This document shows, in pieces, positions 2,019-12,577 of a stretch of 64,000 bases of DNA. The position numbers were made by a program, and so were the translations under genes. The DNA lies in contig NZ_CP072643.1 of NCBI RefSeq assembly GCF_018304765.1, positions 434,001-498,000 on the forward strand, given 5' to 3'. Numbering within the stretch: position 1 is the first letter of the stretch; each line of letters begins with the position of its first letter. The notes beneath the pieces were generated by a model that worked only from the letters and a program-made list of their open reading frames with translations, made no database searches and was not told the origin of the DNA. The DNA comes from Chloracidobacterium sp. N (GTDB lineage: Bacteria > Acidobacteriota > Blastocatellia > Chloracidobacteriales > Chloracidobacteriaceae).

Positions 2019-3017
2019 CTAGGCCAAACGGGCTTCCGAGCCGGCAAAGGCCACAAGACAGCCTTGAAGGTCTGGCGGTAGCGGCGACACAAAACGCATC
2101 GGCTGCGCCGATACGGGATGCACAAATGCCAGATGCGCCGCGTGGAGAAACTGCCTTCCCAACCGCTCGACGGCTTGACGCTGGGACGGATGGCGCAGTT
2201 GCTGGTCACGCCCCAGACCGTAGAGCGGATCGCCCACGACCGGATGCCGGATGTAGGCGCAGTGAACCCGAATCTGGTGCGTCCGCCCGGTCTCAATCCG
2301 TACCTCAAGGAGCGTCACCGGCCCGAACCGCTGCCGAACCACGTAGTGGGAACGCGCCGGGCGTCCGCCCGGGTCCACTGTCATCTTCAGGCGGTGTTTG
2401 CGGTCACGGGCAATGGGCGCATCAATCGTGCCGGCACCGACGACATCGCCGTGAACCAGCGCCAGATAGCCCTTTTCGACCGTGCGGGCGCGAAACTGCC
2501 CGGCGAGGTGTTCCAGCGCCGCGTCGGTTTTGGCGACGACCATCAGGCCCGAAGTATCCCGGTCGAGCCGGTGTACAATTCCCGGACGCAACGGCTCCGC
2601 CCCCGGCCGCTGCTGGCCGAAGTGGAACGCCAGCGCATTGGCCAGTGTCCCGTGCGTCACACCTGCCGCCGGATGGACGACCTGCCCGGCGGGTTTTTCC
2701 AGCACCAGGATCGCTTCATCTTCAAACCGAATCGTGAGCGGCAGGTCCTCCGGCACGAGGTCCGTTGTCACCGGCGCCGGAACATCCGCCTCGATGTCGT
2801 CGCCCGGCTCCACACGGTAACTTGCGCGCCGCACCTGTCCGTTGACCCGGACTTCGCCGTCGGCAATGGCCCGCTGGATACGCGCCCGGCTGACGGACAG
2901 AACCTCGGCCAGAAACACATCGAGCCGGAGACCAGCCGCTGTTTCCGGCACCCGACACAGCACCGTCTCGGCCGCCGACAGGTCCAGGGCGCTGACAGTG
3001 GAAGGGGCTGCATCCAT
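2019..3017 (-). CDS. rluD: RluA/RluD-family 23S rRNA pseudouridine synthase
   Basis: The product is 332 aa. An N-terminal S4 RNA-binding domain (about residues 28-75, LRLDVFLAEVL...SRARIQRAI) is followed by the RluA-type catalytic domain. The signature HRLDRDTSG is at residues 149-157, and its first Asp (D152) is the family's catalytic nucleophile. ETGRTHQIRVH near residue 235 is the second conserved motif. The architecture and length match enzymes that make pseudouridines in helix 69 of 23S rRNA, although exact specificity (RluD or RluC/A) cannot be read from sequence alone. The ATG at 3017 overlaps the stop of the upstream zinc-ribbon gene as TAATG, which argues for translational coupling and fixes this start over a longer frame. 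Confidence 0.88.
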   Translation of the reverse strand: MDAAPSTVSALDLSAAETVLCRVPETAAGLRLDVFLAEVLSVSRARIQRAIADGEVRVNGQVRRASYRVEPGDDIEADVPAPVTTDLVPEDLPLTIRFEDEAILVLEKPAGQVVHPAAGVTHGTLANALAFHFGQQRPGAEPLRPGIVHRLDRDTSGLMVVAKTDAALEHLAGQFRARTVEKGYLALVHGDVVGAGTIDAPIARDRKHRLKMTVDPGGRPARSHYVVRQRFGPVTLLEVRIETGRTHQIRVHCAYIRHPVVGDPLYGLGRDQQLRHPSQRQAVERLGRQFLHAAHLAFVHPVSAQPMRFVSPLPPDLQGCLVAFAGSEARLA

Positions 3018-4270
3018 TACGGGAAGCTCAAACCCGGAAGGAGTTTGGCAATCTCCTGAAATGTTTTCTGAAGCCAATCACCAAATTGCTCGGTGGGTAA
3101 CTCTTCGTCGTAGGAAAGGTGATAGACAACGCCGTTCGGCGTTGACTTGCACTCCCCGCCCAGACTTTTCGTGCGTTCCTCGCGCAGCCGGGGTGATTCG
3201 CCAATCTCGTAGAGATCAACCGACGTAATCAGGTCATAGACCGGCTTGCGCTGCAAAATGACGACCAGCGGAAAGGTCCGCTGCGATGCCAGATACCGGA
3301 AAGTGAGGTCATAGCGGTGCATCAGCAACTCTTCCTGATTGCTGTGCCCCTCGGTGATGGTCACGCACCTTGGGTCCAGCCCGTGGACAAACTGCTGCAT
3401 GACTTTTTTGCGCTCGTTGAACAGCTTGAAATACTGCACGGCGGTGCGCCGTTTGAGGGTGGGGGAAGGAGGTGTCACCAGCGACGGAACGGCTGAGGGC
3501 GTCAGATTCCGCCCAACCGGTGACGCCGTTCCACCCGGCGGCGGCTCCGTTGCCTGGGGTGGCGGCGGCAGGCGGGTGCTGCTTTTCTCCAGGTCCAGAA
3601 TAAACCCGACATCGTCACCGGCGGCTGCCGCCGGAGGTGGCGCGGACGCCGGCGGCTTCACCGGCTCCAGCTCCATGCACAGCAGGTGGTGTGTCGCCGA
3701 AGGGTCCACCAGCGCCGTGGGTATGGCGTCCACCTTGCCCGTCACGGGGAGGGCTTCCGCCTCTGGACGGGAGGTGACTGGAAGCGACGCGCCAGCCTGC
3801 GCCCGCAGGATGGCTTCCACCTCGGCCGGGGCAACGACGACCGTTGGGGGAATGAAGGTGTCTGTCACGGAAGGTTTCGGTGCGGCTTCCGTTTGTTCCG
3901 GTGGAGTTGCCGCCGGCGACACGATGACGGTCGGAGGAATGACCGTGTCGGGTTCCGGCGGCGGCTTCTGACGCTGCGACTTGAGTGTTGGCGGGTCATC
4001 CACGGACCAAACTGCCGCTTCCGATGAAGCTGTCGTTTCAGACGGCGTGGCTGACGCCGGGGCGGCCAACCGACCCGACGAAGGCGACTCCGCAATGGGA
4101 AACTGCGGCGTGAAGAGCTGTGCCCGCTCCTGTTCACTCATCCGGGCGGTCACTTCCGCATCCACCGGTACGGGTGCCGGCTCTGGAAGGGGCACCAGCG
4201 GCAGCCCGTGATAGGGACAAAACCGCTTGCCGTCATCCCAGGGGGTTTCACACTTCGGGCAGGCCTTCAT
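3017..4270 (-). CDS. Zinc-ribbon protein with Pro-rich linker, about 417 aa
   Basis: The N-terminus carries a zinc ribbon (CPKCETPWDDGKRFCPYHG: two Cys pairs, the second with a His). Residues roughly 20-260 are a Pro/Ala/Thr-rich linker with repeated 'IPPTVIVSPA' type segments (PDTVIPPTVIVSP, DTFIPPTVVVAPA). The last 150 residues form a compact domain that I do not recognise (ERKKVMQQFVHGLDP, then IEYASQR-like alpha/beta sequence). A GTG at 4282 could add four residues. The gene is in a four-gene minus-strand unit and its stop overlaps the rluD start. A ribbon plus flexible tail is common in regulators and scaffolds, but no function is assigned. Confidence 0.7.
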   Translation of the reverse strand: MKACPKCETPWDDGKRFCPYHGLPLVPLPEPAPVPVDAEVTARMSEQERAQLFTPQFPIAESPSSGRLAAPASATPSETTASSEAAVWSVDDPPTLKSQRQKPPPEPDTVIPPTVIVSPAATPPEQTEAAPKPSVTDTFIPPTVVVAPAEVEAILRAQAGASLPVTSRPEAEALPVTGKVDAIPTALVDPSATHHLLCMELEPVKPPASAPPPAAAAGDDVGFILDLEKSSTRLPPPPQATEPPPGGTASPVGRNLTPSAVPSLVTPPSPTLKRRTAVQYFKLFNERKKVMQQFVHGLDPRCVTITEGHSNQEELLMHRYDLTFRYLASQRTFPLVVILQRKPVYDLITSVDLYEIGESPRLREERTKSLGGECKSTPNGVVYHLSYDEELPTEQFGDWLQKTFQEIAKLLPGLSFP

Positions 4271-4343
4271 GAAGGTATCCACTCTCTTGCCGGCGTCGGC
4301 CGTCCGGTATGGACACAGCCGGCGCCGGGCGGGATGGAGGCAC

Positions 4344-4868
4344 TCAACGAGTGGGTATCTGTCCCAAAGTTACATCCAGCGGCGGATGATTCGGTACGAG
4401 ATCACAGAGATAACGTTCAACGACCCGGCCATTGCCGTCAATCAGAAATTGTGCCGGGAGCGGCACGCCCAAAGCGGCCCCCGTGCCATAGCCCTTGAAG
4501 ACCGTCCACTCCGGGTCACTGAGCAACGGATAGGGCAGCGCCAAATCCCCGGCGATAAGCTTGGATGTTGGCACATCGGTTGTGGTCACGACCACCACTT
4601 CGGCTCCTCGTTCCTGAAAAGCTGGGTATTGTTCGCGCAACTCGACCAGTCGCGGATAGCAGAACGGTCAGATAAAGCCCCGGTCCACGATGCGGGTCAA
4701 GTAGAGCAGACACCACCGGGGCGCCACCGCCGACAGGGTAAAGGGCTGCCCGTGAATGTCGGGCAGCGTAAAGTCCGGCGCCAGTTGCCCCAGTTCCACG
4801 ACCGACCGGCTCGGATAGGGAATGAAGTTTCCCTTGAAAGGCAGCTCCAGCAGCTTGGCAAGGTTCAC
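4344..4868 (-). CDS. Peroxiredoxin-like (AhpC/TSA) thioredoxin-fold protein, probable selenoprotein (TGA at 4668-4670 read as Sec)
   Basis: One reading frame of 174 codons is interrupted by a single TGA at codon 67. Before it lies the redoxin signature GQLAPDFTLPDIHGQPFTLS (residues 27-46). After it comes PFCYPRLVELREQYPAFQ, then EVVVVTTT, PLLSDPEWTVFKGYGTG and LPAQFLIDGNGRVVERY, which are all normal AhpC/TSA elements. With the TGA as selenocysteine the active site reads U-P-F-C. Related redoxins as I remember them have C-P-F-C there, so the TGA sits exactly on the catalytic Cys. No other stop or frameshift occurs. A SECIS-like hairpin follows. The GTG start at 4868 has AAGGGGG seven bases upstream. 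The gene lies 24 bases after the preceding minus-strand gene. The alternative is a recent nonsense mutation. Confidence 0.72.
4636..4654 (-). promoter_or_regulatory. Candidate bacterial SECIS element just downstream of the in-frame TGA
   Basis: Reading on the minus strand, bases 14-32 after the TGA form a stem of 7 pairs (CGCGACT with AGTTGCG, one G-U) closing the loop GGTCG. Bacterial SECIS hairpins lie within the coding region about 16-37 bases after UGA and need a G in the first two loop positions. The E. coli fdhF hairpin has GGUC in its loop. Here GGTC starts 21 bases after the TGA. Folding was done by eye. Confidence 0.65.
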
Positions 4869-4892: not shown

Positions 4893-5369
4893 TTATTCGT
4901 CACTGCCACCTTCGGGATGGAAGCCACGGGTTTTCCGGCTCTTGTAGGCTTCACCGTACAGCTTCAGCCGCGTCCGCAGGCCCGCCAGGCGCTCACTATA
5001 GTTCGGGTAGCGCCGGATGAGTTTTTCGAGGTTGACCATGTACCACGGTCCGAACATGTCGCGCAGTTCCGGCAAAAACGGCTCCATTTTGGCAAACACG
5101 GCAAAACACTCCGTGTTGGTGTCAAAAAACAAGGCTTCGTCCAGCGCCCCGTGGTTGACCAGCGCGGCGGCCATGTCCCAGTACGTCGTCACCTGCCGCC
5201 AGTAAGCGCCATACACCGGGTTGCGCTTGTCAAACAGCAGGTCCTTGATGTCCTGGGCCGATTCCGGGAAAAACTTGAAAGCCACGAAATCCCGTGCCTC
5301 GCGCATCACCGGGTCGCGGCGCAGTTCGTAGAGTTTCAGAATCAGTTGCGCGTCTTCATGGGTCGCCAT
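4893..5369 (-). CDS. Hypothetical soluble protein, 158 aa
   Basis: The start chosen is the ATG at 5369 (MATHEDAQLILKLYELRRD). The open frame could begin 15 codons earlier, but that extension has no protein-like character. The protein is helical, charged and aromatic-rich (NPVYGAYWRQVTTYWDMAA, FFDTNTECFAVFAKMEPFL), without signal peptide or membrane segment. It is the first gene of a minus-strand unit that continues with the redoxin, the zinc-ribbon protein and rluD. I do not assign a function. Confidence 0.65.
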   Translation of the reverse strand: MATHEDAQLILKLYELRRDPVMREARDFVAFKFFPESAQDIKDLLFDKRNPVYGAYWRQVTTYWDMAAALVNHGALDEALFFDTNTECFAVFAKMEPFLPELRDMFGPWYMVNLEKLIRRYPNYSERLAGLRTRLKLYGEAYKSRKTRGFHPEGGSDE

Positions 5370-5583
5370 GCCACAGCCTCGTGGTTGATAGGAAGAAATG
5401 TCTGTCGCCGGCACTGTATCACAGCCAGTGCGAAACGGTGGGCGCGAAAGTGCAGCGTCCGGCCCGGTGCGCTGGCCTCCAACGCCCTGTCAGCCCCGGA
5501 AGCACTGCCAAACTTCTGTAGCTTTCGTTCAGAACAAGCTTTACACTTTGGCGGTTGTACCTTGTGCCAGCCCCACCTGCCTG

Positions 5584-10966: not shown

Positions 10967-11208
10967 TCAGGGTTCTTCAGCTTCGAGGCGCTGCAAGAAT
11001 CGCTCAACTGCTGATTTCAGGGCCGGTATGTCACGCTGCACGGTATGCCAAACAACGTCGGTGTCTATCTCGAAGTAGCCATGCACCAGGACGTTGCGCA
11101 TACCGATGATTTTGGTCCAGGGAATCTCAGCCGCCAGCATCCGAACCTCTTCTGGCAAGGCGCGGGCTGCCTCACCAATGATTTGAAGATGCCGAAGAAA
11201 CCACGTTT
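10967..11208 (-). pseudogene. hepT: hepT 3' part (HEPN toxin of a MntA-HepT pair), cut by IS insertion
   Basis: The fragment reads KTWFLRHLQIIGEAARALPEE and then MRNVLVHGYF, which includes the HEPN active-site pattern R-N-x(3)-H, and ends with ALKSAVERFLQRLEAEEP. It lacks the N-terminal helix of HepT, which is found beyond the insertion element at 12578-12688. HepT proteins are HEPN RNases paired with the nucleotidyltransferase antitoxin MntA. Removing the element joins ELL and QTWFLRHL exactly, as in intact relatives. Confidence 0.82.
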
Positions 11209-12577
11209 TTGACATACTCCCCTGCCTAAAGGCAGGGGATTCTTGTTCTTGGTTCTGCGAGCGCACTTACTTCATCAGGTTGCCCCTCTAAAGCAGCGGT
11301 GCATCTCTCCCCAAGCGTTCCCTCTTTCGAGGCAGTTCCCTTTTGCCCAAAGGTACTGTTTTGCCACTCCATTCCCAAGATGCTTAGTCCCTTCTTGAGG
11401 ATGTTCAAAGCCGCATTCTGGTCTCTGTCTGATTCAAATCCACATTTAGGACAACTATGGGTTCTGGTGGATAGGGTTTTTACTACCCTATGCCCACAGT
11501 TACTACAGTCCTGTGTGGTGTACTGCGGTGGTACGCTGACTACTGCCTTGTCCCATACCTTACCGTAGTAGTCTAACCACTGGGTGAACTGCGACCAGCT
11601 AGCATCATGAATGGATTTGGCAAGATGATGGTTCTTGACCAGGTTCTTCACCTGCAAGTCTTCGTACACCACGACATCGTGAGATGCCACCACGCACCGA
11701 GCTAACTTAATCACCCAGTCTTTACGCTGGCGTTGGACTTTCAGATGTGCTTTGCCTAGTCTTTTCTTTTGCTTGTGGTAGTTCTTAGATTGAGGTTTCG
11801 CCCCTTTCTTGAACTTCCTACTCAACCTGCGCTGGTGGCGCTTTAGCCGCTTCTCTGCTTTCCGCAGATACTTAGGACACTCTACAGGGTTGCCGTTCTG
11901 GTCGGTGTAGAAAGCCTTCAAGCCCAAGTCAATGCCAATAACATTGCCTGTGTATGCTCCCTGCTCTTTGCGCTCCACATCCAAGCAGAACTGAGCATAG
12001 TACCCATCTGCCCTGCGTATCACCCGCACCCGATTGATTTTGGATTCAAGAATCAACCGTCTTGCTTCACCATTGCAGTACAGAGCAAACGAGCCAGCAT
12101 TGAAGCCATCGGTGAACGAGATAGTCATCCCATCCCCTGACAGCTTCCAGCCAGATACCTTGTATTCCACAGAACGGCAATGCTTCTTGAACTTGGGATA
12201 CCCTTTCTTGACCGCCTTGTTTCTGCAGTTGGTATGGAACCGGGAAATGGAAGCCCAGGCTCGCTCTGCACTTGCCTGCCTTGCCGCTGAGTTTAACTTC
12301 CTGGCAAAGTCAAACTCTTTGGCCAGGTCTTTGCAGTGGGCATAGAGAACAGCTTTGTTGACGCTCTTGTTGTCCATCCAGTACCGCACACATTTGTTTC
12401 TGACAAACTGTGCGGTACGGATGGCTTCATCCAGAGCCTGATACTGCTCTGCTGTCCCGTTGAGTAGCTTGGCTTCCATTACTCTCATACTGCTATTTTA
12501 TCACAGGTTTGGCTTGATAAAACAGCGTGCGCCTTATATCCCTGCCCTAAAGTGCAGGGCTTTACGGCGTTTTTTCG
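11209..12577 (-). mobile_element. IS200/IS605-group element with tnpB only, inserted in hepT
   Basis: Boundaries were deduced by restoring the hepT frame: the left end follows TTAC (minus strand, 12581-12578) and the right end is at 11209, giving 1369 bp. There is no terminal inverted repeat or target duplication. Subterminal hairpins are present: CCCCTGCC/GGCAGGGG at 11219-11237 and CCTGCCC/GGGCAGG-like sequence near 12541-12560. No TnpA (Y1 transposase) is encoded, so mobility would need one in trans. Base composition is visibly lower in GC than the neighbours. Confidence 0.8.
11226..12488 (-). CDS. tnpB: TnpB RNA-guided nuclease (IS605 OrfB), 420 aa
   Basis: N-terminal helix-turn-helix OrfB domain, then a RuvC-like nuclease with three acidic sites: GIDLGLKAF (about residue 186), VYEDLQVKNL (about 277) and DRDQNAALNI (about 362). 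The zinc finger CSNCG...CPKCG lies between the last two. All catalytic residues are present, so the nuclease looks intact. The omega RNA of such elements overlaps the 3' end of tnpB and the right end, and its guide would be the flanking hepT sequence. Lower GC than neighbouring genes supports horizontal origin. Confidence 0.9.
   Translation of the reverse strand: MRVMEAKLLNGTAEQYQALDEAIRTAQFVRNKCVRYWMDNKSVNKAVLYAHCKDLAKEFDFARKLNSAARQASAERAWASISRFHTNCRNKAVKKGYPKFKKHCRSVEYKVSGWKLSGDGMTISFTDGFNAGSFALYCNGEARRLILESKINRVRVIRRADGYYAQFCLDVERKEQGAYTGNVIGIDLGLKAFYTDQNGNPVECPKYLRKAEKRLKRHQRRLSRKFKKGAKPQSKNYHKQKKRLGKAHLKVQRQRKDWVIKLARCVVASHDVVVYEDLQVKNLVKNHHLAKSIHDASWSQFTQWLDYYGKVWDKAVVSVPPQYTTQDCSNCGHRVVKTLSTRTHSCPKCGFESDRDQNAALNILKKGLSILGMEWQNSTFGQKGTASKEGTLGERCTAALEGQPDEVSALAEPRTRIPCL

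Follow-up and report, generated by a model that had tools for sequence, protein, structure and literature searches.

A gene in the genome of Chloracidobacterium sp. N very probably encodes a 174-residue selenoprotein of the AhpC/TSA fold, in which selenocysteine (Sec) is inserted at the UGA of codon 67 by means of a hairpin in the messenger. The gene lies in a stretch of 64,000 nucleotides that was analysed as a whole, hereafter called the window, and the host genome comprises 3.7 Mb on two contigs. The first-pass annotation of this DNA had regarded the gene as a likely selenoprotein, and the conservation of the TGA, the frozen hairpin and the complete selA–selD set of the host support that view. 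In the present study, the gene, the conserved UGA, the invariant hairpin, the decoding gene set and the fold family were all obtained by computation.

Translation of the minus strand from 4868 to 4344 gives 174 residues and a stop; the only TGA inside the frame is codon 67, within the motif RGFI-U-PFC (Table 1). This agrees with the first-pass description of a 175-codon gene open save for one TGA within U-P-F-C. The coordinates 4344–4868 proposed there also stand, but the strand had been left unstated, and the plus-strand translation of 4344–4868 contains no redoxin of this kind. The start codon is GTG here and ATG in five of the seven orthologues of the genus. Codon 175 is a genuine stop, since it is TGA in six of the seven genus genomes and TAA in the remaining one. 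The read-through protein matches PF00578 (AhpC-TSA) over residues 27–151 (5.6e-23, 81.7 bits against a cut-off of 26), and therefore the AhpC-TSA domain spans the TGA, in line with the earlier remark that redoxin sequence continues past it. The match to PF08534 (Redoxin; 4.9e-14, 52.8 bits) is above its own cut-off and below the score of PF00578. PF00578 was found at 16 places in the host genome, and only the gene with the TGA at codon 67 has a stop inside the match.

Table 1. Features of the Prx-like gene and its neighbours (window coordinates)
Feature	Position	Strand	Details
Predicted Sec-containing Prx-like gene	4344..4868	-	174 aa, GTG start at 4868, TGA stop at 4346-4344
In-frame TGA, codon 67, U of UPFC	4668..4670	-	TGA in 7/7 genus genomes
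Cys70 codon, second residue of UxxC	4659..4661	-	aligns with the Cys of TPxC in BCP/PrxQ-type peroxiredoxins
Cys155 codon	4404..4406	-	invariant in 7/7 orthologues; possible third redox Cys (putative role)
SECIS hairpin (putative)	4636..4654	-	7 bp stem CGCGACU/AGUUGCG, apical loop GGUCG (4647-4643)
20-nt run identical in 7/7 genus species	4636..4655	-	codons 72-77 whole and two bases of codon 78
DUF4760 gene, upstream	4893..5372	-	PF15956, 3.9e-25; 24 nt before the start codon
421-aa gene, downstream	3017..4282	-	no Pfam match at E<=0.001

All seven Chloracidobacterium genomes searched, the host included, carry one TGA in the gene, always at the same codon and never replaced by a Cys codon. 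The proteins of the six other orthologues are 82–98% identical to that of the host, and the pairwise nucleotide identity among the seven ranges from 0.74 to 0.95. In each of the 21 pairs, synonymous codon changes are more numerous than amino-acid replacements on either side of the TGA (plain counts, not dN/dS), and for this reason the half of the gene downstream of the TGA looks selected as protein. A search of named genomes gave five loci, three of them at 82–84% identity and two weak ones at 27–30%.

A hairpin with a GGTC loop had been noticed 14 bases past the TGA at the first pass, and seven pairs around GGTCG were indeed found there. The hairpin starts at the 14th base past the TGA, and 20 nt separate the UGA from the loop; in the E. 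coli fdhF gene, used as a control, GGTCT lies 18 nt past the UGA. Both a G in the small apical loop and a position directly downstream of the UGA, by which bacterial SECIS elements are described in the consulted part of PMC1088965, are present. When 50 nt (bases 4–53 past the TGA) were folded, the hairpin appeared in 7/7 orthologues; in a 70-nt fold that included the TGA, it belonged to the minimum-energy structure of four of the seven, and alternatives won in L021, L022 and L024. No covariation was seen in the stem among the seven orthologues, because no pair varies within the genus and all seven are invariant.

Taken on its own, the hairpin is weak evidence. Under a loose rule, a stem of at least seven pairs follows 83 of the 1868 TGA trinucleotides on both strands of the window (the gene's own TGA included), and a stem of at least six pairs follows 219. 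A loop starting with GGT, situated 16–24 bases away and closed by at least six pairs, follows five of the 1868, among them the TGA of codon 67. The contiguous-stem rule used for these counts is crude, as it credits the true fdhF element with only four pairs. It is the conservation of the TGA and of the synonymous sites of the hairpin within the genus that raises this hairpin above chance. Across the seven species, 16 of the 118 degenerate codons with an invariant amino acid are also invariant in nucleotide sequence; six of these form an unbroken series (codons 72–77) inside the hairpin, and a run this long arose in 22 of 100000 permutations.

The host genome contains all four genes of the Sec decoding system. 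The selA match has an E-value of 9e-130 and the selD match one of 9.7e-116 (386.6 bits, cut-off 125); SelD is apparently of the Cys form (GCAAK, judged by eye). SelB has 629 aa and possesses the GTPase, SelB beta-barrel, SelB-wing_2 and SelB-wing_3 domains. ARAGORN reported a tRNA-SeC with the anticodon TCA, which scored 62.4 bits with the tRNA-Sec model against a cut-off of 47; because a tRNA-Leu (L004, 47.8 bits) passes this cut-off as well, selC was identified by its higher score combined with the TCA anticodon. SelA is present in 38 of the 39 genomes searched (the host and its relatives), so that the Sec trait looks general in the lineage of the host.

The look-up of further selenoproteins in the host genome was confined to the PF00578, Fdh-alpha, CMD and Rdx profiles. 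The Fdh-alpha profile gave nine places, none above the cut-off and none with a stop inside, the CMD profile gave one place without a stop inside, and the SelW-like Rdx profile gave no match. In addition, a base-composition scan of the window for coding-like stretches joined by a TGA returned 25 of 156 frames as raw candidates, including the gene with the TGA at codon 67.

Several readings dispense with selenium. The TGA is one base away from a Cys codon, and the window alone could not exclude that an ordinary CPFC redoxin gene has here suffered a nonsense mutation or a sequencing error. However, the same TGA stands in 7/7 genomes at 74–95% nucleotide identity, with synonymous changes prevailing downstream of it, and a TGA at codon 67 also occurs in 15 more distant homologues. 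A private mutation or error is practically excluded, since selA–selD are present and the TGA is found in all seven genomes, and we consider this the least credible of the explanations weighed here. Hardly more credible is a protein that ends after 66 residues, the rest being non-coding or a separate ORF of 98 aa beginning at the TTG at 4640. The mechanical ORF table does give ORFs of 66 and 98 aa, as automatic annotation might, but the AhpC-TSA domain (residues 27–151) crosses the TGA, and the residues between the TGA and the TTG (PFCYPRLVE) are conserved in 7/7 orthologues. In the predicted model, such a split would also strand the β-strand at 52–58 from the helix at 70–86.

Bacteria show some UGA readthrough, and the codon could thus be read as Trp or Cys by a near-cognate tRNA without selenium. 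This is very improbable in view of the complete Sec gene set and the frozen hairpin. Besides, UGA serves as the stop at codon 175 in six of the seven orthologues, and the residues aligned at codon 67 are Sec, Cys, Thr or Ser and in no case Trp. Decoding of UGA 67 as Sec is by far the preferred reading.

For a wider comparison, a genus-profile search collected AhpC/TSA proteins at 72 loci (host genome, class and phylum), which were then aligned. The column of codon 67 holds TGA, Cys, Thr or Ser, with Thr and Ser occurring in peroxiredoxins that have a TPxC or SPxC motif. The class search at E<=1e-20 revealed no close Cys orthologue; its matches came from 7 of 162 genomes, each of them Chloracidobacterium, with at most 21 candidates per genome among the matches listed. 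The phylum search at E<=1e-13 gave matches in 63 of 396 genomes, three of which belong to the genus, with at most eight candidates per genome among the matches listed. Outside the genus, the phylum matches are distant only, and many of the listed places have no assigned locus, so stops there are unplaced. In a tree of 57 rows, the branch of the genus is long and leaves an open fork with no firm sister group. Judging by the class and phylum searches and this long branch, the gene is a genus-restricted branch of a broader phylum set of UxxC redoxins. Viral contigs gave 61 pattern matches and no relative among them.

The occurrence of the hairpin among these relatives was counted by one rule, with one row per distinct downstream sequence and with the seven orthologues left out. 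A stem of at least six pairs with a G in the loop follows the codon in 14 of the 15 rows with TGA, in one of the seven with Cys, in nine of the 26 with Thr and in neither of the two with Ser; some of the 15 TGA rows are near relatives, and they do not represent 15 independent events. The signal may partly stem from the protein sequence, since the Thr rows (9/26) exceed the TGAs of the window (219/1868). One Cys row, L052 (CPT-), which is included in the tree and in the hairpin count, appears to be an AhpC that was misaligned. In the phylum, six Prx-like genes with UxxC (L077, L079, L080, L083, L087 and L095) have a common stem, gcagctc/gagctgc, after the TGA, with a GTN or GGT loop that lies at 21 nt in all of them; the related CPYC genes L073 and L086 are without this stem. 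Two peroxiredoxin matches of the same class, L088 and L093, contain a stop inside the match (TGA and TAG, respectively), and their active sites read TPVC and SPVC. The TGA of L088 sits elsewhere, as Thr occupies the column of codon 67, and the stops in both loci are perhaps match edge effects or signs of broken genes rather than Sec at the codon-67 site.

By its domain and motif, the predicted protein is best filed as a member of the known selenoprotein family 'Prx-like thiol:disulfide oxidoreductase (UxxC)'. The motif leads to this assignment because U67 meets the Thr and C70 the Cys of the peroxiredoxin TxxC; the gene combines a PF00578 domain with UxxC, not TxxU, at the Prx active-site position. 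As far as the family is described in the consulted parts of PMC1088965 and PMC13188914, the Prx-like UxxC/UxxU selenoproteins likewise have PF00578, Sec where TxxC has its Thr, and a hairpin directly after the UGA. The Chloracidobacterium gene differs in forming its own genus-restricted branch and in having a conserved extension, some 22 residues long, at the N-terminus. The example given for the family is WP_010940744.1, and the likeness drawn here is to the family's domain, motif and description. PMC13188914 lists the family as a high-confidence prediction. The study of the Sargasso Sea set (PMC1088965) describes bacterial 'Prx-like' selenoproteins that have UXXC instead of TXXU, 32 such proteins from 28 organisms are given in PMC5029168, and an extract of PMC9312934 sets them apart from a UGC-containing Prx-like subfamily.

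Other families were compared and set aside. The Redoxin family selenoprotein, a separate row in PMC13188914 known to us from its description there, shares UxxC and the PF08534 match, but it needs PF08534 as the best domain, and PF00578 scores higher here. PrxU has the same AhpC/TSA fold, but its Sec occupies the other position of the motif (TxxU, which is absent here), and its model NF040737 reached only 28.7 bits against a cut-off of 270. The SelL-related redox protein (NF040769) shows a weak sequence match of 35.3 bits against a cut-off of 120, and one Sec and one Cys are present here. The thiol-disulfide oxidoreductase ResA resembles the protein in fold and has its CxxC region opposite UPFC, but its score was 44.2 against a cut-off of 170. 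No NCBIfam model exceeded its cut-off for the protein or for the first of the seven orthologues, the PrxQ and thiol peroxidase models being far below theirs. PF13911, which we take to be AhpC-TSA_2/PRXL2, was not among the two Pfam matches of the protein at E<=0.001.

The AlphaFold model of the protein has a mean pLDDT of 84, and of 74 for residues 61–70. The best solved relatives include peroxiredoxins (5enu, with an E-value of 1.1e-13, and AhpE) and the disulfide reductase ResA (4nmu, TM 0.88 by target length). The name peroxiredoxin, given at the first pass, holds for the AhpC/TSA fold and does not hold for a classical peroxiredoxin, which requires Thr or Ser in TxxC; Sec stands in that column in 7/7 orthologues.

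SelB binding, Sec insertion, the catalytic cycle and the substrate are proposed here by analogy with the named families. SelD and SelA would make selenocysteyl-tRNA, and SelB would bind the hairpin 14 to 32 bases past the UGA (loop GGUCG) and deliver tRNA-Sec, which would decode the UGA at codon 67 as selenocysteine. Sec67, at the position of the N-terminal Cys of thioredoxin-like proteins, is probably the residue that attacks the disulfide or peroxide substrate; Cys70 would resolve the intermediate as a selenenylsulfide. A reductant of the thioredoxin type would then reduce the selenenylsulfide and restore the enzyme. Cys155, invariant in the genus, might take part.

Both protein disulfides and peroxides are conceivable substrates; the absence of the peroxiredoxin Thr inclines us towards thiol:disulfide exchange. 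It is quite possible, if somewhat less probable, that the same selenoprotein acts as a peroxidase, with Cys70, in the peroxidatic position, or Sec67 reducing hydroperoxides. Peroxiredoxins (5enu, AhpE) stand beside ResA among the best solved relatives, and Cys70 aligns with the Cys of TPxC; on the other hand, Sec replaces the Thr of TxxC, and the PrxU, PrxQ and thiol peroxidase models of NCBIfam are far below their cut-offs, but so is ResA.

In the N-terminal region (window 4868-4803, minus strand, residues 1–22), the stretch LELPFKGNFIPYPSRS (residues 7–22) is invariant in all seven orthologues, and residues 1–14 were modelled with a pLDDT below 50. The stretch may be a partner-binding tail.

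At all 10 genus loci that were compared, three of them apparently from the same genomes as another three, the Prx-like gene is flanked by the DUF4760 gene and the 421-aa gene, and the DUF4760 protein is 90–97% identical across the other genus loci. The adjacency of the DUF4760 and Prx-like genes on the same strand, 24 nt apart, in each locus suggests that the two may form an operon. Elsewhere in the window, a 420-aa ORF at 11226-12488 on the minus strand contains the motif DRDQNAALNIL and looks like a transposon protein, presumably of the TnpB/OrfB type. It is followed by an ORF at 10967-11266 on the same strand, which we take to be HepT/DUF86-like. A Cys-rich ORF of 89 aa at 1627-1896 on the plus strand has an apparent N-terminal signal, as judged by eye.

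A 2006 paper, in the portion consulted, reported four selenoproteins of three families for Acidobacteria (PMC1794560), and a method paper of 2025 mentions one acidobacterium with three known selenoprotein genes (PMC12013277). In the open-access literature as searched by these terms, 'selenoprotein' and 'Chloracidobacterium' co-occur only in a review on ergothioneine and related alkaloids. The finding is conceptually expected, because both the family and the decoding system are already known; what is new is the member, and the kind of selenoprotein is known.

We regard it as a speculative and rather unlikely extension that the protein is a Sec-only redox enzyme particular to phototrophic Chloracidobacterium, possibly serving a specific partner, a thiol or a peroxide, in phototrophy under exposure to oxygen. 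It could also belong to a very small number of selenoproteins for which the genus keeps its Sec machinery, and might be the chief one among them. The absence of a Cys orthologue at E<=1e-20 in the 155 other genomes searched in the class and the conserved N-terminal extension are the basis for this suggestion.

An annotation based on stop codons would split the gene or call it a pseudogene, and the Sec reading explains it as one intact gene. With this reading, Chloracidobacterium, a phototroph living with oxygen, would gain a selenoprotein, and Sec would enter the redox biology of an oxygen-living phototroph. The frozen hairpin of the genus, together with the contrast between TGA and Cys across Acidobacteriota, offers a natural set for following the gain and loss of Sec in UxxC redoxins.
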